Positions 37,522 to 48,151 of a DNA stretch of 64,000 nucleotides are shown in pieces (the first letter of the stretch is position 1; every line of letters starts with the position of its first letter). The position numbers were made by a program, and so were the translations under genes. The notes below the pieces were generated by a model, which was not told the origin of the DNA, made no database searches, and saw only the letters and a program-made list of their open reading frames with translations. The stretch covers positions 186,001-250,000 of the forward strand of contig JANQQE010000024.1 of the NCBI GenBank assembly GCA_028285105.1, read 5' to 3'. This DNA comes from Alphaproteobacteria bacterium. Its GTDB lineage: Bacteria > Planctomycetota > Phycisphaerae > UBA1845.

Positions 37522-40500
37522 TCAGTTGCCGAACAGTGATTCAAAAATTGCGAAGTCAGCAAGGTCCACGTCACCGTCGGTATCGAAATCGACTTCGTTG
37601 CAACCACCTGCCGCACCCGCATTGGGGCCAAACAGGCATGTCTCGAAACATGTGGCGTAATCGTCGAGATCGATATCGCCATCGGCATCGCAATCGCCCG
37701 GGGCAGGTTCGGGCAAGAACATCGCCGCAACAGGCAGCGATAGTCCGTCACAATCGATTGCGATCGACGCGAACGCGCCCGTCGCCGATTCCGGATTATC
37801 GATGACGGCGAGCGTCGGCGTCGCCAGCAACGAACCCGTAGCTCCCGAAAAGGGTGGGCTCATCGGGTTGAGGTCATCCCGAAACCGCGGGGTTGTGAAT
37901 CCAGTAACGTACAAGTGACCGGTGTTGGGGTTCTCCATCAGAGAAGTGATCGCCGCTGAATGACCGCACTCGCCCGTACCACAACTTTGAGCGTCACCGG
38001 TCGGATTGATGATGTCAAAAGCGCCGTCTGAAACCAGACCCGTGACTGCATCGCCGGAACGTTCGATCGAGAAACGATGCACGCGCGTCTCTCCGTCGGT
38101 TGTTTCGTTGATCGATGAACTGACAAAAATAGAATCGCCTGCCTGCGAAACAAGCATTGCTGTCGGGCTTCGAACCACCGCACTAATGTTAAAGCGCTGT
38201 TCCGATGCGTTGCCCACCGACGTGTCGTAAACGCTAATCCAGTCATTGGCATCGCCCGCTGCCAACGCGATGACCACATACAGATTTCCGTGGCGATCCA
38301 CCTCCACTTCGCGCATCCGCTGCAAGTCGGGCTCAAAGACGACACCACCGAACACAGTCGTCGTAAACGTGACCGAGGTTTCTGTGTACGGATTGATGCC
38401 ATACAGTTGCGTGACGGTGAAGCTTCCGTCGGCTGGCTCAGCCAATTGAAGCTGTGCCGTCGCTTTGTAGACTTGTCCGCTCGGGGTGTTCACGACGACA
38501 GGCGTCACATATGCGATTCGATCATCGTTCGGGTCAAACGCAACATCGAGCAACGGAAGTCCCTGGAAGTTGCCTTGAGGCGTATCATTCACTCCGACAT
38601 AAATGGTGTCGGCTCCGAACAATTCCGCAGAAGGCGCAATGACGGCAAAACCGTCACTCAATCGAATCAAACCATCGCGCGCGTGAATTTGAAAAAACTC
38701 GTTTTGACCCTTTGATATGATCTTCCAGTTGCCGCGATACCCGATGCCGCCAGGGGCGCTGGCGGGTGATTGTGAGGGGGCTGCACAAAAACCGTTGGTA
38801 TCGATCGTATAGAGTACGTCGCTTTGATCTCCGGGGCTTGATGACTTCCCAGCGATGAGCAACAAATTTGGTGGTGGCTGGGTAAATCGCGACTGACGAA
38901 CGCTACCAGCGCTGCGACCCGCGCCAGGCCCCCCGGTCCCGCAGGCGTCAAGCGCACCATCGTTGAAGAGGACCTCCCATGCCAGTAAGTCCGAAAGATC
39001 AACATATTGGTCTTGGCTTTGGAAGGAATCGAGACACCCATCGCTGCTTTGGATGTCTGCGACTTTTCCGATCTCGGCCATGAGCACCAATAGATCGCCG
39101 GTGTCGACTGTAGCCGTTCCGTTGAGGTCTCCGCATGCAAAGCAAAGGATGACCGGGTCCCATTTGTCGATCCAAATGCGCGCTCCGGTTCCACGAAGTT
39201 CCAGTTCTACATACGTTCCGCGCCTGAAATTCAGTTGCCCACTGGGAAACGTGCCGTGAAACACGCCAAGATCGCTCGAACCGATCGCGCCCGGGCGGCC
39301 CGGTTGTGGCGGTCTTATCCTCGCCAGTTCCACCAGACTTTCACCCACATTGGGACTGTCGCTGATGTAAACAACCAGTTCGGCGTTGGTGTTTGGATCG
39401 GCTAGAAACTGATACTCGAAAGCCACCGTGATATCTTCTTCGCCCGCTCGGGCGAAAGCTCCTTTCGCCGCCACCGACGTCGCAGATTGAAAGTCTCCGT
39501 CCGCTTGCGTTTTCATTTCCATCACGCCGTTGTTTCCGCCCAATGCACCGGGCAGAAGGGCAATTGCACCTTGCTTGGGGAATGCGGGTGGAAGGGGTTG
39601 CTGATCGCCAGAATCTCGCACTCGCTTTCGCACGCGAACGTCAAATTCGTTGAATGGCGATTCGGTTTGATCGTTCATTTCGATCACACCCAGTGAAAAT
39701 CCAAGCAATGGAATGTCGATGATCGAAGCCCCGTTCGAACTGACCGGGACACCGTTGGAATCGACGTAGCTCAACGATTCGTAGTAGAGCGATTGAAGCG
39801 CCGTATTCAGGATGGCGTTTGGATAGAGTACGAGTTGCTTGACGTAGGCGGCTTCGGCGACTCCATTGCTGGTGAATTGAAATCCCGCGCGATTGGTCAG
39901 ATTGACTTTCGCTCCGGGCAGAACTTCCAGTTTTTCGATGACCCAGTTCTCGGATGGATCGGCCGTGAACCCGGGACTGCCTGGCGCAGCGAACGCACCC
40001 GATTCGCACATGGGGTTTGTTCCATTGCTCGTACAATCATAATCAACCGATCGCAACTCCAGCAGCGTACCCTGATCGCCATCGATCCCTTCTTTGATGA
40101 TAACGGTCAGCCGGTTGTTGATGATGGACGGTTGCGATCCGTCACTCGGGTCCGGGTCGAGGTCCAGATAGCGATCTCCCTCCGACACGATGCTGTTGCA
40201 ACTGACCACGGATTGGCCCGACGCAAAGAATTCACCGCCATAACCTGGCGTCGATTCCACCAAACGGATATCGTTGTGGACAATGTCGTTGACCCCGCCA
40301 AGATCGAGCAGGTTCACAGCCACATTCGTGTTTTGAATCCGCGCCGTATCCTGTACGACCAGCGATCCGTTAACGCTAACGATACCGCCAGCCGGCGCGC
40401 CCGGGATGTCCTGAAGACTGCACACTTCGTCGGCCAACCCACTAAGGTTCAACGTTGCCTGTCCGCCGACAATCAACTTTGCGCCAGGTTCAATCTCGAT

Positions 40501-43500
40501 GGTGCCAAGTCCGCGAATGTCACTGCGTGTGATCGTTGCGCCTTGGGGCGGTGTAACCGGTCCGAGCGTCAACTGCGAATCTCCGGTCCAGATGATCTCT
40601 GATGCGGTGTCGAAATCGAGCAACTCACCGCCATCCTGATTGGCATCACCCATGACCATCGCGATCGACTGCGTACCGGTCATCAGAAAATCGGCATTGT
40701 TGCTGGTCAGGAAACCGCCAGTTGGATTGACAACCGGCGCAGATGCGAATTGCAGTTGGTCGGATGTCTCTGATGTTTCCTCGACAGTGAAAGGTGTAAC
40801 GGTCGCAACAAGAAGTTCGCCGTCAAACAGCAAATTTGCGCCCGGACCGGGTCCATCGTATACCGCACCGGTCACGATCAAGTCACCTTCACCCACAAAG
40901 CTGGCTTCCGCGAGTCCGCCAGCGCTCACATCGCTACCGAGAAACTGACCGGTCCAGGAAAGCGTAGCCGTGCCCGATTCCGCGCTTGGAGCCACGTACC
41001 AGGTGGTCTGGCTCCCGGTAACGACCAGATCGCTGATGGGGGCATCGATGATCTCCCATCGGGCTGGCACCGGATTCGCACCGCCCACTTGCGACGCAAA
41101 AATGCCTGTCGTGCCCAACGTTCCGCTGACCGTTGTAATCGCTTCGGCATCGCACGGTGCTGCATTATTAATCCGCATGGTCGAATTGGCATCGAGTTCG
41201 ATTGTTCCTTCGCCTTTGATTTCGCTTTCAAATACCTCCAGGTCTCCGCCCTGCAAGTTCCACCCACCGTCAAGCGTCATTTGCGTTTGCGACAATCCGA
41301 CGCCGGCGATTCCAGGTGCATTCACTCCGAGCGTCAGGTTGTTTACGCTGAGGAATCCGCCGTAACTGACCAACGCACTCGCGCAGTCGCCAAAATTGTC
41401 GACGAAAGTGCAATTGCGAAGCGTCGGTCCTCCGGCGATAGTAATCATTCCCCCACCCGATGACGGTAGGTCTGCATTTCCAAAACTGATTGTAAAACCA
41501 TCCAAAATCGCCAGCACCGAAGTCCCGGTACCGCTAACGACATGGTAAGCGTCATCAATAGGATCGCTCGGTACACCCAGGTCGCCGCTCAATAGCGTTT
41601 CATTCGTCGAAACGTCGCGATCCTCGCGAACCAATTCTGTACCATCGAATCCGCCATAAATCGCAACGCCATCAAGAAGTTGAAACGTGCTGCTCCGATC
41701 GCCCAGCAATTGGCCCACCCCGCGATCGGGATAGTAAGTACCCGCCGCAACCCAGATCTCCTGCGCCCCGCAACCGCTGGCAGCTGCGGCTTGCAGTGCA
41801 TCTTGCAAATCGTTGAACGCATCATTCCAACTGCTGCCATCGTTGGCACCCGTCGCAAATGAATCGACATGGAGACGCAATCCCACAAACGATCCGAATT
41901 CGTGCGCTCCCATGTCTACAATAGCGATTCCTCCAGTGCCCGTATCGGAGGTGGCTGGGTCGTTCACCAAACGTGGCAGCCCGCTGAAATCAAAGGGTAT
42001 CTGCTCGAGAACATTCTCGTCGCAGTCAAGGTCAGTATCATCAGCCGCCGTAGCCCCATTGCTTCCGGCATCAATCGCAGGCGAACCAGGCGACAAACGC
42101 AGGTCGCCATAATCATCGTCGCTGTCACCCCAGCCGTTCGTCCCCGCATCCGGCATCCGGACGAACAGCGGGTCGTCATCGATATTGCCATTGGTCAAAC
42201 CGCCAAATGCAACGATTGCATCGTCTGGATTGTCATCTTGAATCAACGAATACTTTACCGAGACAAGTCCCGTCGTCGTGACAGGAATTTGGTTTAGAAT
42301 ACCGGATGCACGGTTCTCCCAGAATATAGAATTGGCGATGTTGTGTTCCATCGCCTCGCCGATGGAAATGGCCGCAGTTGCTTGCGAATCGGTTTGGTTG
42401 TGGGAAAACGTACACCCTGAAAAATCGATCAATCCCCGCGCTGCGCCGCCAGCAAGCGCCGCATGGTTACCGACGAATTCCGAATTTGAGCAAAATGAAC
42501 CCGCACCACCGTCAATAAAGAGCGCGCCTCCCCAACGGTTCTGAGCTTGATTACCTGCAAAAAGGCTGTTCGCAATAAATACCGAACCGTCATTGACGCC
42601 CCAAAGCCGAATGGCTCCGGCGTTTGCGCACGCGAAGTTGCGAATGAACCGACTGTTTTGAATGTACTTGGGGCCGGCACTTTGAAAGTAAATCGCACCG
42701 CCGGATGCAAAGCAATCGGCCTCGGCACCGTTGTCGATGAAATCGCAGTCTTCGATTCGGATGTTGCATTCGGCGGGACTATCCGATATCGCGCCTCCGG
42801 AGTTTCGCGCTCGATTGCCTTGAAACAAGCACGACCTGAACACGGGCGAAGCGTCGGAAACACCCACGGCACCGCTGCAAACGCCTTCGTTGTCGATGAA
42901 TTGACAATCGGTTACGACGACGTCGGTGCTGTCGACAAAAAGGGCTGTATGACCGCCGCTGCAATTGGGCCCGGTGATTGGCTTGTTGCGCTCGAATCGG
43001 CAACGATTGATGACGGGATTGCCTCGGTCAACCCACAATCCCCCTCCATTCTTACATGCATTCTCAACAAAATCGCAGTCTTCAATAAGCAGGTTACTGG
43101 AACGATTGAACACGCCTGCGCCGTTCGCCGCGATATTTCCGCGGAAAGTACACCGTGCGATGTACGGATCGCCACCCGCCGCAAAGAAATTAACGCCACC
43201 TCCCGATCCGATCGTTGCGTTCGCTTCGAACGTGCAGTCCGTAACCACGATATCAGTCGTGCCCAATCGGACGGCTCCTGCATGACTGTAGCCAAAGTTC
43301 GCAACAAACCTTGTATGACGCAGCGTCGGACCGCCTTGACTGTATCCGCCGCCGCCGTTGAAACCCCCTTCGGATGGACCGTCGGCATTCCCCGAACGTA
43401 CAATGAAACCGTCGAGAACGGCTGAGTTGTCAGTACCCGATCCGGTGACGATGTTGTAACTGTTCTCGCACGTACCCAAATCCGAACAGCCGACCTCGCC

Positions 43501-43989
43501 GTTCGAATCGATGTCAAAGGGTTGGCAGAATTCGTCGAGTGCGATGCCGACCGTCGTGATACAAACGACCCCCGAAGGGAGATCGGCAATGTCGTCGCCA
43601 TCAAGATCGCCACTGAGTATCGTTGCATTGGTATTGATATCGCGTTCGTCGAGCAGCGTTTCCGTGCCGGCAAACCCACCGTAAAGCGCTAAATCGTTTC
43701 GCAATTCAAAAGATGCCGTTCGATCGCCGGGCGTCAGTTCAAAACCCTCATCAGGTCTGTACACACCTGCCGCCACCCATATTTCCCTGACCGTCGGATT
43801 CAAATCCGTTTCGGCCAGCGCATCTTGAAGCGAAACGAATGCATCGCTCCAACTCGATCCATCGTTAAGTCCACCCGTCGCACTAACGTCTACGTACAAA
43901 ATCGTCTGAGCCGCAGCTGGCGAGACAGCCCAACCGATGATCGCTGCGAGCAACGCACTGCTCTTGAATCTCAGGCGCGTATCAGTCAT
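37522..43989 (-). CDS. Giant exported beta-helix protein with dockerin-like modules
   Basis: About 2155 residues from the ATG at 43989, which has GGAG upstream and overlaps the prepilin-like gene by 8 bp; the frame further upstream is not used. Signal peptide ends SPAAAQ. Two homologous blocks begin [20 protein letters not shown] (residue ~28) and [20 protein letters not shown] (~700); each continues with EIWVAAG.Y.P and YGGF.GTE, the choice-of-anchor/right-handed beta-helix repeat type with many DCTF and NSIF rungs. A dockerin-like segment lies near 1620-1690 ([20 protein letters not shown]), then a propeller-like region. A final dockerin-like pair ([24 protein letters not shown]) ends the protein. 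No catalytic motif was recognised. Probably surface-exposed, with adhesive or polysaccharide-related function. Confidence 0.9.
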
Positions 43990-44848
43990 CGATGATCTCC
44001 ACATGACATGAGACAGCCTCGGGGTGAAGATCGCGGAAAGGCAATATGGTGTATTTCGCTGTGACATCGAGACCCTTGCGAATGCGCGTAAATGATACAT
44101 GACCATCCAAGAACGCAAGATTGTGTTTGTACTTCGCGCCGTGCCATTCGATTCGCTGGCTGCTGTTGTAAATCTGTGCATGCCGCCAACCGTGGTCGCC
44201 GGCCAATATCAGTTGCGATGGATTCGCCGTCACGCTCGACAGCGTCATGTTCGGAAGTCGCTTATTGATGGTCACGAGTAACGGTTTGCGACAAGGTGGC
44301 TGCAAAAATGGCAGCACTGGAAGTTGCGTTTGATCGATCAACATCGGATTGGTGATGTAGCTGTTGCCATAGTGCGCGAAGAATGTCGGACCGATGAACT
44401 CGCTGCCTTTGTCTCCCGGGCACAAAAAAACTTCGGCGCTGTCCCAAGTGACTTCCGGAAGTTTCAAGTACGGGTTAAGGACCTTGCGCTTTGGTTGAAT
44501 CACGACTGGCGGATTGGCGGGGTTGTCTCCACCATACGCCGGTCCGCCCAGACCCTGACGACCGCCAAAGTTTACGTTGGTGTTGACGCCCTTGAGAAAT
44601 CGCCATTCATTCGCAACGAGGTATTCGTCCCAGGCAACTGCAATTTGCCGAAGGTTGGCTTGGCACGCAATTCTTTTGGCCTGCATTCGAGCCTTGCGCA
44701 AACCCGGTAGCAGAATCGACACCAGCAGCGCAATGATTGAAATGACGACCAGGAGTTCTACAAGGGTGAACGCTCGGCACGTTTCTTGAGTACCGCGCGA
44801 TTCTCTGCGGCGAACGTTTCGAAGTGGATGCATTCGCATGTTGTTCAT
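43982..44848 (-). CDS. Prepilin-like protein with DGH tail motif
   Basis: 288 residues. Type IV prepilin signal [26 protein letters not shown] after a ~26-residue basic lead, again with Ala before the Phe. The body has [17 protein letters not shown], and near the end [12 protein letters not shown], the same DGH motif as the protein at 20833. The ATG at 44848 overlaps the kinase stop (ATGA), and its own stop overlaps the giant protein start. Translational coupling on both sides suggests a dedicated partner in display or export of the giant protein (inference). Confidence 0.88.
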
Positions 44849-46584
44849 GGCATATCACCCGAGCCTTTCGACTGCGATAGCGCTTCGACTCGAGCCTTGC
44901 AGGATTCACTCAGCCACCGATCTTTGGATGCCGCGACACAACCATCGAAAGCCACCATCGCTGCTGCAACATTGCCCGCAACAAGCTCTCGCTCGCCCAT
45001 TGAAAAATGAGCCAACGCTGGATGCTTCTTCGCCAGTTGGTCGAACAATGGAGCTGCTTTTGCGCCTTTTGCCAAGAGATACTCACTCGCCAGCGCCTCC
45101 GGCGAGTCCGATGACATCGACGCTTGTATCGCCCGCGCTCGATCCAATCGACCCGCCCGCCATTCCAGCAAAAACCAACCCAACGTCATCTGCCGTAACT
45201 GGGTCAGTACGTCTCCACGCAGGTGAGAAATGTGTCGGGTTTGCGATGTTGCAAGTTGATCCTTGCGTCGAACCTCCGCCAGCGCGCTTTCGGACTCCTG
45301 CCAATAGTAGAAACTGATACCGGCGAAACCGATCAGAGCAACAAGCATTGCGACTGTAATCACCGTGGCATAAGCATGGCGAACGGCCAGTTTTCGCAAT
45401 ACATACAAGGTTCTGTCTCTCTTGGCGTCGATCGGATCGCCATCGAGATAGCGCTGGATATCTGCCCGCAGTTCTCCGGCGCTTTGGTAGCGGCGCTGCG
45501 GCTCTTTGCTGAGTAGTTTCAATACGATGGTTTGAACTTCATTGTCGATGGGACATCGCCCGGTCTTGCGCACTTTCGCCGATTCGATTGAAATACCGCC
45601 CGCACCCGTCCACGAGCGCGATGGGGGCGTAGGCTCCGTTTCGATGATGTGCCGAAGCACGTCGGCCATCTGCCCCACCACCGGATACGGATATTTGCCG
45701 GTAAGCATTTCGTAAAGGATGACGCCCAGTGCATAGATATCCGTACGGGCGTCGATTTCACTGGAGAGCCCGCGCACTTGTTCCGGACTCATATAAGGCA
45801 GCGTCCCGACGAGTTGCCCGGTCAACGAAACCGGGGATTGGTTGTCGTCACCGACGCTCTTGGCCAACCCGAAATCCAAAATCCGCGGCTCGCCCGATGC
45901 ATCGACAAGTATGTTGCTTGGCTTGAGATCACGATGAATGACACCGTGCTGATGCGCGAACTGGACAGCCGCACAAATTTTTGAAAAAAGTGTGAGTGCG
46001 TCACCCATGGTCAGCGCGTTTTCTCGAACGAAATCCGTCAACGAGAGGCCATCGACAAAGTCCATGGCATAGTACTGACGTCCGTCAGGCGTTTTACCGG
46101 AGTCAAACACGGCGACAATGTTCGGGTGACTCAGACTGGCTGCCAATTCGACTTCGCGCTCGAACCGCAGTCGCGCGCTTCGCGATGCAAATCGGCCATC
46201 GAGCAGAACTTTGAGCGCAACCTTGCGCTTTGTGGACACCTGCAAGGCTTGATACACCACACCTTGCCCACCATGACTCAACTCGTGATCGATTTCATAA
46301 CCGGGAATCGGATCATCCGATCCCAAGGCAAAGCCCGAACTACGGTCAGCCGACATATCCATCGTTTCGGCGCAACCGGCGTCAGCCGCCACCGCTGCGG
46401 GCAAACGCCGCAACTCACGGGCGAGCGATTCTTCCCTGGTAAATCCCTCGTAAAGATCGCGACAGGATGCACATTGATCCAGGTGCGCCTCAACACGATC
46501 AGCCGTATCTGATTCCAGCATCCCTCGGGCGCTTGCCTCAATTTGATCGATGGCAGGGCACTGGGGAGTTGAATGGTCATTCAT
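44845..46584 (-). CDS. Membrane Ser/Thr protein kinase with N-terminal anti-sigma-type zinc finger
   Basis: About 579 residues from the ATG at 46584; a TTG at 46614 overlapping the sigma stop is less likely. Residues ~25-45 contain H-x3-C-x2-C (His34, Cys38, Cys41), the putative zinc-finger of anti-sigma (ZAS/zf-HC2) proteins. Residues ~96-370 are a complete PknB-type kinase: GGQGVV loop, Lys125, HRDLKPSN (217-224), DFG (237-239), [10 protein letters not shown]. One membrane helix (~400-425: [20 protein letters not shown]) follows, then a ~150-residue helical TPR-like outer domain. It sits 23 bp after the ECF sigma gene, so it likely senses an outside cue and controls that sigma factor. Confidence 0.93.
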
Positions 46585-46607
46585 TGTTCGCCACTCCGCC
46601 AATGGGC

Positions 46608-47225
46608 CTACCAATCCCGATCCAGAGATTCCAACATCTCACGCATTTTTTTCATCAACCGGCGTTTCGCCTGAAACACAGCGTCGCGCGAGATACCGAC
46701 TTCAGAAGCAACTTTATCTGCCGGCCATTCGTTCAATACGTAGAGTTCAAATGCACGCATGGTGTGCGGTTCGCATGTCTTGCGCAGTTCATCCAGACAA
46801 CTGTTCAGAACAGCTTGCCTCCATTCGTCTTCCCATGCTTCGGAAATACTGTGGTCGTCGGCAATCTTGTTGACAAACACAGTTGAACCGTCGTTCTCCG
46901 CCACTTGCTGTTCGCGCGGTGCCTTTCGCCATTGGCGACGGACGGAGTTCTTGGCTATTCCGAAAAGCCAACTGCGAAGTCGTCCTTTTTCGCGGGTGTA
47001 CTTGCCGGCAAGGTATGAATCCAGGAATGTCATCAGCGCTTCCTGCGCCGCGTCCATTGCGGTGTCGTGCGACAAACCCAGTCGCTTGCCAAAGGCGACC
47101 AGAACCGGACGATAACGCTGGACAAACGCGCTCCAGGTCACGTCGTTTCCCGCATCCTGCAACCCCAACAACAACTCTGTGTTTGTACGAAGGGTATGCG
47201 GATTCTTGGGATCGTCGATCGGCAT
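46608..47225 (-). CDS. ECF-type RNA polymerase sigma factor
   Basis: About 205 residues from the ATG at 47225. Region 2 is seen as WSAFVQRYRPVLVAFGKRLGL... DAAQEALMTFLDSYLAGKY and RLRSWLFGIAKNSVRRQWRK; region 4 as MRAFELYVLNEWPADKVASEVGISRDAVFQAKRRLMKKM. The frame extends to a GTG at 47390 and includes an ATG at 47378 with a strong GGAG. The added ~50 residues are atypical for the family and AT-rich in codon third positions, so 47225 is preferred. Known: planctomycete ECF groups linked to Ser/Thr kinases. It heads the kinase, prepilin-like and beta-helix operon. Confidence 0.92.
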   Translation of the reverse strand: MPIDDPKNPHTLRTNTELLLGLQDAGNDVTWSAFVQRYRPVLVAFGKRLGLSHDTAMDAAQEALMTFLDSYLAGKYTREKGRLRSWLFGIAKNSVRRQWRKAPREQQVAENDGSTVFVNKIADDHSISEAWEDEWRQAVLNSCLDELRKTCEPHTMRAFELYVLNEWPADKVASEVGISRDAVFQAKRRLMKKMREMLESLDRDW

Positions 47226-47820
47226 TTTTTTATTCCATTGGAGAAATGAACCCAACGCATCCATCGTAACAATAGGACATTTTTGCTTCAATCTTCGTCT
47301 GACTTTACGCCGTAGTCGGGCTGCATCTGCGTTATTATCCGCGCCATTCTCACCGTACGCCTCGTGCCACTGTTGCATTTTTTTCTCCACTCGATTCCGA
47401 CCTGCCGCTCCTTTTCATCTACCAGCGAACGTCGCAGCAACTCGGGGACATTGGGGCCACCCATCGCCAATTGGCGCTTCCGCACGATTGAATAACGACG
47501 TCCAAAGCGCATTGCCATTTGGTTCCGGCAATCTGATCCCAAATTTCAAATTTTGCTGATCTGATACCGGTAACGACTCAATGGCGGGGTCCGGGCTTCT
47601 AAACCAACGACCCGGTAACCAACTCGCCTGATTTGGCGTTTACACAGCTCGCGGGCCTGTCAGTCGGCATCTTCAGATTTTTTCTTTCCAGCGCGTCAGA
47701 TCGGCGGGCCGAGTTGGCAAGACCGGTTGTTGCGATGATCGGTCCACGGAACAACGAGCGGCAACCGTGGCTGAGACTGATTTGAAATCTTTGGTCAATA
47801 CCGCTCGTGGAGATACAGAT
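47226..47820. other. Divergent intergenic region between sigma factor and small lipoprotein genes
   Basis: About 595 bp (440 bp if the sigma gene starts at 47378). No further gene was seen. It must hold the promoters of both directions. Notable are short inverted repeats (CCACGG at 47744-47749 and CCGTGG at 47765-47770) and a block at 47675-47702 that recurs upstream of the Kazal-repeat gene. No consensus ECF promoter with correct spacing could be called by eye. Confidence 0.5.
47675..47702 (+). promoter_or_regulatory. Shared upstream block, copy 1
   Basis: A T-rich run followed by CCAGCGCGTCAGATC, 118 bp before the small lipoprotein ATG. Matches copy 2 at 48208-48234, including the T-run and CCAGCGC-x-TCAGATC. 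Possible common promoter or leader element. Confidence 0.45.
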
Positions 47821-48036
47821 ATGGAAACCAGAACACGAACGAACTTTTTGGGAATGGTTGTGATGCTTGCTGTCGGAATGATCCTCATCGTTGGAACCGG
47901 GTGCGATTTGTACGACTTCGCAGACTTTGGATATTACGATTCCGGTTTTGACTCCTGGGGCTATTACGATAGCGGGTTTGATGCCTGGGCGGATGACAGG
48001 ATCAGCACATTTGCAAGTGACTTTATCATCTATTGA
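47821..48036 (+). CDS. Small lipoprotein with tandem Tyr-Asp-rich repeats
   Basis: 71 residues. The ATG at 47821 has GGAG 8 nt upstream; an upstream in-frame ATG at 47767 lacks this. Lipoprotein signal METRTRTNFLGMVVMLAVGMILIVGTGC, lipobox GTGC. The mature part has two imperfect 10-residue repeats, GYYDSGFDSW and GYYDSGFDAW, rich in Tyr, Asp, Gly and Trp. No family recognised. A perfect terminator follows at 48106-48151, so it is a single-gene transcript. Its position opposite the ECF sigma gene makes it a candidate regulon member. Confidence 0.75.
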   Translation: METRTRTNFLGMVVMLAVGMILIVGTGCDLYDFADFGYYDSGFDSWGYYDSGFDAWADDRISTFASDFIIY

Positions 48037-48105: not shown

Positions 48106-48151
48106 GCGTCGATGGTCTTCACTCTCCCTGAAGACCATCGACGCATTTTTT
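48106..48151 (+). terminator. Strong rho-independent terminator
   Basis: A perfect 16-bp stem (48106-48121 with 48129-48144) around a 7-nt loop is followed by ATTTTTT. It ends the small lipoprotein transcript, 70 bp after its stop codon. Confidence 0.9.

Follow-up and report, generated by a model that had tools for sequence, protein, structure and literature searches.

A conserved cassette of sigma factor, zinc-finger membrane kinase, prepilin-like protein and giant secreted protein in Phycisphaerae

According to the available text of the papers cited here, genes for ECF sigma factors lie beside Ser/Thr kinase genes in the EcfP/PknT and EcfK/PknS pairs and in groups ECF43 and ECF59 (PMC8103513, PMC8999054), and zinc-finger anti-sigma factors are described as ZAS proteins (PMC8999054). 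The pilus operon of the toxin-coregulated pilus encodes a secreted protein with a reported interaction with the minor pilin (PMC9565799). Planctomycetes possess expanded N_methyl/SBP_bac_10 pilin families that are often flanked by signal-peptide genes (PMC8567305), while the Planctosome model for freshwater Phycisphaerae features an anchoring protein of 2,210 aa together with dockerin domains (PMC6461901). Ser/Thr kinases are expanded in Planctomycetota, with none or very few predicted in Phycisphaera (PMC11032199); zinc fingers and pilins, both of which feature in the cassette described below, do not occur in the available text of that survey.

The window, the whole 64,000-nucleotide stretch of DNA that was analysed, carries a cassette of four adjoining minus-strand genes encoding a sigma factor, a membrane kinase, a prepilin-like protein and a giant secreted protein. 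All four genes, their coordinates and their overlaps had been given correctly in the first-pass annotation, as a re-reading of the sequence established. The features are as follows:

46608..47390, minus strand: ECF-type sigma factor, 260 aa, GTG start (Pfam Sigma70_r2 and TIGR02937)
44845..46584, minus strand: membrane Ser/Thr kinase, 579 aa (Pfam, alignment of 28 kinases, hydropathy)
44848..45330, minus strand: C-terminal domain of the kinase, LGWFL-EW-AGR region (kinase alignment and position of the membrane span)
43982..44848, minus strand: prepilin-like protein, 288 aa (PF07963, TIGR02532, family alignments)
37522..43989, minus strand: giant, 2155 aa, with signal peptide, beta-helix part, conserved core and dockerin-like C-terminus (Pfam Beta_helix, 1e-15)
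41095..43902, minus strand: beta-helix part of the giant, residues ~30-965 (PF13229, three stretches)
37660..40542, minus strand: conserved core of the giant, residues 1150-2110 (alignment over 16 giants)
37525..37716, minus strand: dockerin-like calcium loop pair at the C-terminus of the giant (by eye from the sequence)
47821..48036, plus strand: small lipoprotein-like gene, divergent from and adjoining the sigma gene; cassette membership uncertain

The kinase, pilin and dockerin patterns that serve as sequence labels are motifs that we take to be the standard ones. The kinase ATG at 46584 lies 23 bp past the sigma stop, the kinase and prepilin genes overlap in an ATGA at 44845-44848, and the prepilin and giant genes overlap by 8 bp at 43982-43989. 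An in-frame TTG at 46614 is an alternative kinase start and would give an overlap with the sigma gene. ATGA is found at 20 of 44 kinase ends in the family, including that of the window. Short overlaps of this kind are commonplace in operons and by themselves prove little of a unit; it is the conservation of the neighbours that lifts the four-gene set above chance. A scan for promoter-like sites returned 3, compared with 6.7 in shuffled sequence; for terminator-like sites the figures are 12 and 13.3. The lipoprotein-like ORF is also present, divergent to the sigma gene, at locus L077, and a hairpin with a T run lies near it in the window, at 48106-48144.

A profile of the prepilin-like protein identified 31 relatives in 21 of the 114 genomes of the order, at a threshold of 200 bits chosen once the gap in scores, from 205 down to 190 bits, was known; the window and five seeds had entered via sigma similarity and the other 25 loci via pilin similarity. 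Within the order the set occurs in five families, and elsewhere in the class in two more; in the genus, 2/5 genomes have it. Its distribution over the surveyed order and class sample is patchy. With genes called by profile searches of stop-to-stop frames, a kinase was found upstream of the family pilin in 27/28 cases, compared with 3/109 for other pilins (Fisher 4e-24, shared ancestry ignored), and a protein of at least 1000 aa downstream in 22/26, compared with 12/89 (Fisher 2e-11, again ignoring shared ancestry). Both neighbours had to lie within 3 kb, the kinase on the same strand. The comparison set comprised 124 pilins scoring 40-200 bits (lower-scoring loci of the order, loci of a wider scan and second pilins within family loci), from which exclusion of rows too close to a contig end gave the denominators 109 and 89. 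The single locus scored as lacking a kinase, L231, owes this to an artefact of the overlap rule (kinase frame L231:735-2954). Outside the order, the kinase adjoins the pilin in 14/15 loci, the miss being L307; these are 15 of the 16 listed class-level pilin places of at least 200 bits, G333:C352 (200.7 bits) being left out. A wider contig scan with the pilin yielded at least 79 loci, and among the matches listed the only family members were L146 and L147. To judge by length and scores, both are contigs that the order set already includes (in G104 and G084), and they were not counted in addition to L229 and L236. Variation in architecture includes tandem copies in genomes G084 and G052, a changed gene order in L248, a core giant placed immediately ahead of the kinase (L237 of G103), and an unrelated FG-GAP giant after the sigma-kinase-pilin trio in L234.

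Pilin and giant core also occur together at the level of whole genomes. In the order, 17 genomes have both, 4 the pilin only, 2 the core only and 91 neither (n=114, p 1e-14); in the class sample, which includes the order genomes, the corresponding counts are 27, 5, 4 and 361 (n=397, p 1e-32), and outside the order 11, 2 and 2 for the first three. For the class, pilins were counted from 239 bits, which leaves uncounted four genomes with best scores of 179-199, one of them (G038) with a core match. The two proteins are sometimes found in one genome but unlinked, the core giant lying elsewhere in G063, G064 and G066. The pilin occurs without the core in G026 and G082 (where contigs end), G045 and G058, as well as in G404 and G410, which have weak core-like pieces only (41 and 22 bits); the core, in several cases partial, occurs without a counted pilin in G038, G081, G128 and G299. 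Across 16 modules, pairwise distances of pilin and core correlate at 0.88, of pilin and kinase at 0.83 and of kinase and core at 0.82, falling to 0.68, 0.56 and 0.51 after two close relatives, L077 and L240, are dropped (p 2e-4 to 4e-4). A whole adjoining core was required of these modules, the near-copy L246 was left out, and the kinases of L228 and L229 are cut by contig ends.

The four genes are conserved and inherited together as a unit. That they constitute one module had been proposed at first pass, together with the proviso that their linkage should be conserved; the linkage is conserved, and the proposal is well supported by recurrence in five plus two families, pilin-core co-occurrence and correlated divergence. 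Linkage by descent only, in which a common sigma-kinase pair happens to adjoin one pilin among dozens and one beta-helix protein among many, is very improbable. It can draw on the genome itself, which contains 37 pilin matches (E up to 0.01) and 23 beta-helix matches, the window pilin and giant included, and on the frequency of sigma-kinase pairs without a pilin: among 40 stretches surrounding the closest homologues of the sigma factor (35 from relatives, 5 from own paralogues), a kinase is present in most but a family pilin in only 5, which makes the sigma-kinase pair a general type. Against such an origin speak the recurrence across families and class, the tandem copies and the changed order, the co-occurrence of unlinked pilin and core, and the low control frequencies.

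The window sigma factor matches Sigma70_r2 (4e-10) and TIGR02937 (8e-21), each above cut-off; region 4 is weak alone (19.1 against 25.7 bits), and TIGR02937 spans residues 87-253. It possesses regions 2 and 4 and no other sigma regions, as expected of an ECF factor, and, like those of EcfP/PknT and EcfK/PknS, its gene is paired with a Ser/Thr kinase gene. Relatives align mostly from about residue 66, and a sigma-like gene lies directly upstream on the same strand in 21/27 order-level family kinases with room for one. Members of ECF43 have uncharged residues in place of the acidic DAED motif (STTA in EcfP), whereas of the 12 window-type cassette sigmas in which this position can be read, 10 retain at least two acidic residues; the other two, the window sigma and that of L077, read TAMD. 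An EcfP-style neutral motif was rejected as a family rule on this ground, and the family is not characterised by an EcfP-like switch.

The kinase has zf-HC2 (PF13490, 28.3 bits, cut-off 22.2) and Pkinase above cut-off, followed by a membrane span (residues ~400-418) and a conserved C-terminal domain that is predicted to be extracytoplasmic; a second, weaker hydropathy peak is found at 534-552. The catalytic Lys and Asp are invariant across 28 aligned kinases. As a membrane protein with an HxxxCxxC zf-HC2 encoded beside an ECF sigma gene, it resembles ZAS proteins, but its finger is part of a fusion that also comprises a Ser/Thr kinase domain, a membrane span and an outer domain that is conserved. 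Compared with EcfP/PknT and EcfK/PknS, the finger is an addition, and a pilin and a giant follow. Within the order the zinc finger tracks the sigma type: a window-type sigma precedes 11/11 zinc-finger kinases with an adjoining same-strand sigma (L226 is cut by a contig end) and 0/9 finger-less kinases, or 0/10 with L242, whose sigma is seen by Pfam only. This rule fails at class level, where the zinc-finger kinases L299, L303 and L308 sit behind a different sigma-like gene. The kinase C-terminus is different and longer in L079, L080 and L231, and only this longer form is found in G045 and G058, which have no core match. Neither the kinase zinc finger nor the core of the giants had been remarked on at first pass.

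The window pilin matches PF07963 (1.6e-5) and TIGR02532 (1.3e-5), each above cut-off, and combines the prepilin cleavage motif and hydrophobic helix of type IV pilins and type II pseudopilins with a family-specific globular domain (GG-QG, CP-D-G, DGH and IRKG motifs). It fits no named class: GspG, ComGC, ComGE and others score below cut-off and match the N-terminus only, Verru_Chthon cassette protein D (TIGR02596) gives 24.1 bits against a cut-off of 70, and the 31-member profile matches pilins in the PDB in its N-terminal part only. Unlike the expanded planctomycete pilins, the window pilin, the one family member scanned against Pfam, shows N_methyl alone at E 0.01, with no SBP_bac_10 (DUF1559), and its family has recurring sigma-kinase-giant neighbours.

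Cassette giants span about 1600-2600 aa. The window giant has a Sec-like N-terminus, and an N-terminal hydrophobic signal of their own is present in 20/20 family giants with an intact N-terminus. Its residues 27-435 and 707-865 can both be aligned with one and the same set of stretches in other giants, and the beta-helix part apparently consists of two related arrays. No C-terminal beta-barrel of the autotransporter or polymorphic membrane protein type was found; Beta_helix alone exceeds its cut-off, with a Chlam_PMP repeat below it. The core of ~960 aa aligned across 16 giants includes an internal dockerin-like stretch; that of the window giant matches no Pfam family, and the only PDB match to the core up to E 1 is a dockerin (E 0.14). 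On these comparisons, the core is a new, undescribed protein family. Predicted structures from few alignment rows reached a mean pLDDT of 39.7 for the core (3 rows) and 36.3 for the pilin (4 rows), values too low to support a comparison of folds. A propeller-like core end, suggested by strand pattern and alignment, was dropped and is not claimed because no library confirmed the fold; an SBBP match appears in 1/16 core members (E 0.004). Dockerin anchoring to a cohesin partner was likewise rejected, the genome (97.84% complete) having no match to cohesin PF00963; Pfam dockerin itself is not detected in the window giant at E 0.01. The giant resembles the Planctosome model in its size, its dockerin-like parts and its host class, but the genome has no cohesin match, and where that model has lamin-tail and P-domains the giant has a beta-helix and the new core.

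Our preferred, though tentative, reading of these domain contents is a self-regulated cassette that may make and export one giant extracellular protein. The kinase zinc finger would hold the sigma factor at the inner membrane, while the outer domain would read the state of pilin or giant; phosphorylation or a change of shape would free the sigma factor, which would then transcribe the operon. The giant would reach the periplasm by Sec, and the dedicated pseudopilin would join the cell's machine for type II secretion or type IV pili and pass the giant on through the outer membrane, at which the beta-helix would be displayed or released. TcpB/TcpF and CofB/CofJ are presumably minor pilin/cargo pairs of a comparable kind. 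The toxin-coregulated pilus operon encodes a whole type IVb pilus, whereas the cassette has a single pilin, a giant and a sigma/kinase pair. No secretion machinery lies within it; the 16 matches to T2SSE, a broad family of ATPases, are all elsewhere in the genome and are weak evidence for any one machine because T2SSE has matches in all 14 control genomes. Of the original interpretation, the single module stands, while a dedicated surface-display route through the prepilin-like protein is something we only infer, the giant having its own signal and the cassette no secretion machinery. Other pilins too sometimes precede large genes (12/89), which counts against an export role. A fuller version, a new kind of export control in which a kinase-fused zinc-finger anti-sigma protein would hold the sigma factor and its outer domain would read giant export via the pseudopilin, so that the cassette makes, exports and monitors its cargo, with an exchangeable beta-helix passenger on a constant core, is rather unlikely.

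The pilin may instead serve signalling, since its linkage to the kinase is tighter than that to the giant. As the kinase's outer partner, a sensor at the surface or in the periplasm, it would control the sigma factor through its state, with the giant as main regulated product leaving by a general route; we regard this as possible but on balance unlikely. The near-strict kinase-pilin adjacency in order and class, exceeding that of pilin and giant, is in its favour, as are L079 and L080, which retain sigma, kinase and pilin and lack a giant, whereas the strongest of the three distance correlations is that of pilin and core, which also co-occur when unlinked. More doubtful is a regulated surface-giant operon whose pilin is a structural partner, for example a carrying filament, involved in neither transport nor sensing: it accords with the pilin N-terminus and the co-inheritance with the giant, but sits poorly with the giants' own N-terminal signals and leaves the strict kinase-pilin pairing unexplained.

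Such a cassette was not found as a described system in the open-access literature, consistent with its first-pass designation as undescribed. It brings with it a new family of protein cores, as well as a kinase whose fusion to an anti-sigma-like zinc finger may connect phosphorylation to sigma control. Planctomycetes have pilins by the dozen and numerous giant genes for which no role is known; by tying one pilin to one giant family and one regulator, the cassette makes cargo-specific export by pseudopilins a testable question.

Family scans resolved the cassette into the following four genes:

46608-47390, minus strand: sigma factor, ECF-type
ATG at 46584, minus strand: Ser/Thr kinase, with zf-HC2 and protein kinase domains
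overlapping the kinase gene at 44845-44848, minus strand: prepilin-like protein (pilin), with a prepilin N-terminus
overlapping the pilin gene at 43982-43989, minus strand: giant protein, right-handed beta-helix, 2155 aa

The sigma stop codon lies 23 bp before the kinase ATG, the kinase and pilin genes overlap by ATGA, and the pilin and giant genes overlap by 8 bp; the gene set, spacing, overlaps and giant size proposed in the first-pass annotation agree with these coordinates. The window giant has a signal-like stretch at its N-terminus and, at its C-terminus, two dockerin-like calcium loops, recognised by eye. Divergent from the sigma gene lies a small lipoprotein-like gene (47767-48036, plus strand, lipobox VGTGC) with a hairpin beside it at 48106-48144; it occupies the same place in a stretch from the same genus (L077) and is a possible regulon member.

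A sigma factor search over 60 genomes (the window's own and relatives) was followed by inspection of 40 stretches around the best matches, 35 of them in relatives and 5 at paralogues in the window's own genome. A kinase adjoins the sigma gene in most of these stretches and a pilin is present in only 5, so a sigma gene paired with a kinase is the general arrangement, of which the cassette is a special form. The full four-gene order occurs in L077, in the same family (L078) and in another family (L094), and sigma-kinase-pilin in L079 and L080. A profile seeded by the window pilin and the five pilins of these stretches retrieved 31 pilins of at least 200 bits, a threshold placed at a visible score gap, in 21 of 114 genomes searched within the order; for the 25 that were not among the seeds, the surrounding DNA was fetched and its genes read as stop-to-stop frames and by profiles. 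A kinase lies upstream of the pilin in 27 of the 28 loci with enough flanking sequence, compared with 3 of 109 comparison pilins (40-200 bits), the sole miss (L231) being an artefact of the counting rule, and a protein of at least 1000 aa lies downstream in 22/26 versus 12/89, figures that, like those for co-occurrence and correlation, ignore shared ancestry. These counts bear out the linkage across relatives that the first-pass annotation had suggested looking for. Because the kinase-pilin linkage is the tightest in the cassette, the alternative that the pilin serves signalling, not export, is a serious one. In genome G057 (L251, 1261-6570), a sigma-kinase pair is immediately followed by two pilins scoring below the threshold (171 and 152 bits) and by no giant, possibly a sister of the cassette.

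Sixteen giants align over a core of ~960 residues (window residues 1150-2110) at 36-73% identity to the window protein, and their N-terminal beta-helix parts are variable both in length and in the number of copies. The window core is without a Pfam match, and any Pfam family found among the 16 members is confined to a single one; in the PDB, the sole match at E 1 or below is to a dockerin (E 0.14, internal stretch). The core, whole or cut, is present in 20 of the 22 giants behind a pilin; the L234 giant has FG-GAP and TSP_3 repeats in its place, and no core was seen in the cut giant of L248. Wherever the giant's N-terminus is intact (20 proteins), it includes a hydrophobic stretch. Pilins without a large downstream protein are those of L079, L080, L237, where a core giant directly precedes the kinase, and L243, whose genome (G066) encodes a core giant elsewhere. 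Gene order is altered in L248 (pilin-kinase-giant), and tandem copies occur in genomes G084 (sigma-kinase-pilin-giant-kinase-pilin-giant) and G052 (sigma-giant-kinase-pilin-giant). In G064, sigma-kinase-pilin is followed by the FG-GAP giant (L234:4186-8952) and a core giant follows another copy of the sigma gene at a separate site (L273:5767-11049), a possible cargo exchange. In G066 (C1:2193669-2196587; L274, L283) the core sits inside one open frame of 4696 codons, far above other giants. The G038 stretch L280 (5129-7237 and 10016-12007) encodes a short protein with the core close to a kinase resembling those of the family and yields no pilin-profile match, possibly a decayed or simpler cassette form.

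Of the 114 genomes searched within the order, 17 encode the pilin as well as the core, 4 just the pilin, 2 just the core and 91 neither. In a class sample of 397 genomes that includes genomes of the order, with pilins counted from 239 bits and four genomes at 179-199 not scored as having one, the corresponding numbers are 27, 5, 4 and 361 (outside the order: both 11, pilin only 2, core only 2). The survey extends to the class, and many of the genomes covered are assemblies in short contigs. Distribution is patchy: of the 5 genomes from the genus, 2 have the cassette. At class level, 15 of 16 pilin places of at least 200 bits were fetched, with a kinase adjacent in 14; pilin and core are far apart in G358, G378 and for one of the two G392 pilins. 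Across 16 modules, pilin, kinase and core distances are correlated with one another (0.82-0.88; 0.51-0.68 in the thinned set), consistent with the genes being inherited together. Collectively, these data demonstrate the conservation, architecture and co-inheritance of the cassette.

A sigma-like gene lies directly upstream on the same strand in 21 of 27 order-level kinases with upstream room, 20 detected by profile (several weakly) and L242 by Pfam, which also confirms three of the weak ones (L227, L232, L245). It is on the opposite strand in L233, in L235, and for the second copy in L236, the kinase comes after a giant, and no sigma-like gene was found directly upstream in L237, L241 or L247. 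Pfam scores the HxxxCxxC zf-HC2 finger, of anti-sigma type, in 10 of 28 aligned kinases. Within the order, finger kinases accompany a sigma like the window's own in 11/11 cases (L226 cut by a contig end) and kinases without the finger do so in 0/9 (0/10 counting L242). At class level, the finger kinases of L299, L303 and L308 stand 600-860 bp behind a different sigma-like gene, so the finger may track sigma type as a hint within the order, not as a general rule. Some class-level cassettes have a frame of ~180-205 aa between sigma-like gene and kinase (L295:8938-9495, L303:4033-4578, L308:4691-5305); the one scanned, that of L295, has no Pfam match.

ECF sigma factors linked to a kinase have been described before, and members of group ECF43 are without the acidic DAED motif (sections of PMC8103513 and PMC8999054). 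The window sigma has TAMD at this position, yet 10 of 12 window-type cassette sigmas, unlike such members, retain at least two acidic residues there, which rules out an EcfP-like neutral-motif switch as a family feature.

Hydropathy gives 14 of 15 kinases one membrane span, which separates the kinase domain from a conserved C-terminal part; in the window kinase this span (400-418) is joined by a second, weaker peak (534-552). Most order-level kinases align beyond the span in an LGWFL-EW-AGR region, and those of L079, L080 and L231 carry another, longer one. Genomes with this second form only (G045, G058) have no core match, and the next larger genes at their second-form loci, uroporphyrinogen-decarboxylase-like (L080) and a sigma gene (L079), are not giants; the third genome with it, G082, also has a first-form module, whose giant is truncated at the end of a contig. 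The co-variation, though small, is a hint that the giant or its export is what the outer domain reads.

Published work describes expanded pilin families in planctomycetes, often with signal-peptide genes as neighbours (PMC8567305), planctomycete kinase expansions with very few or no kinases predicted in Phycisphaera (PMC11032199), and a secreted protein reported to interact with a minor pilin of the toxin-coregulated pilus (PMC9565799). No description of the cassette was found in the available parts of the open-access literature, to which the search was confined, in agreement with the earlier suggestion of an undescribed system. Our tentative reading, given slightly less than even weight after a small reduction for the class-level exceptions to the finger-sigma link, is of a sigma-controlled cassette in which the kinase would anchor the sigma factor and watch the outside of the cell, possibly signalling by phosphorylation. 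The pseudopilin would be devoted to export, and perhaps display, of the giant by way of the general pilus or secretion ATPases of the cell, a broad family with 16 matches elsewhere in the window's own genome.
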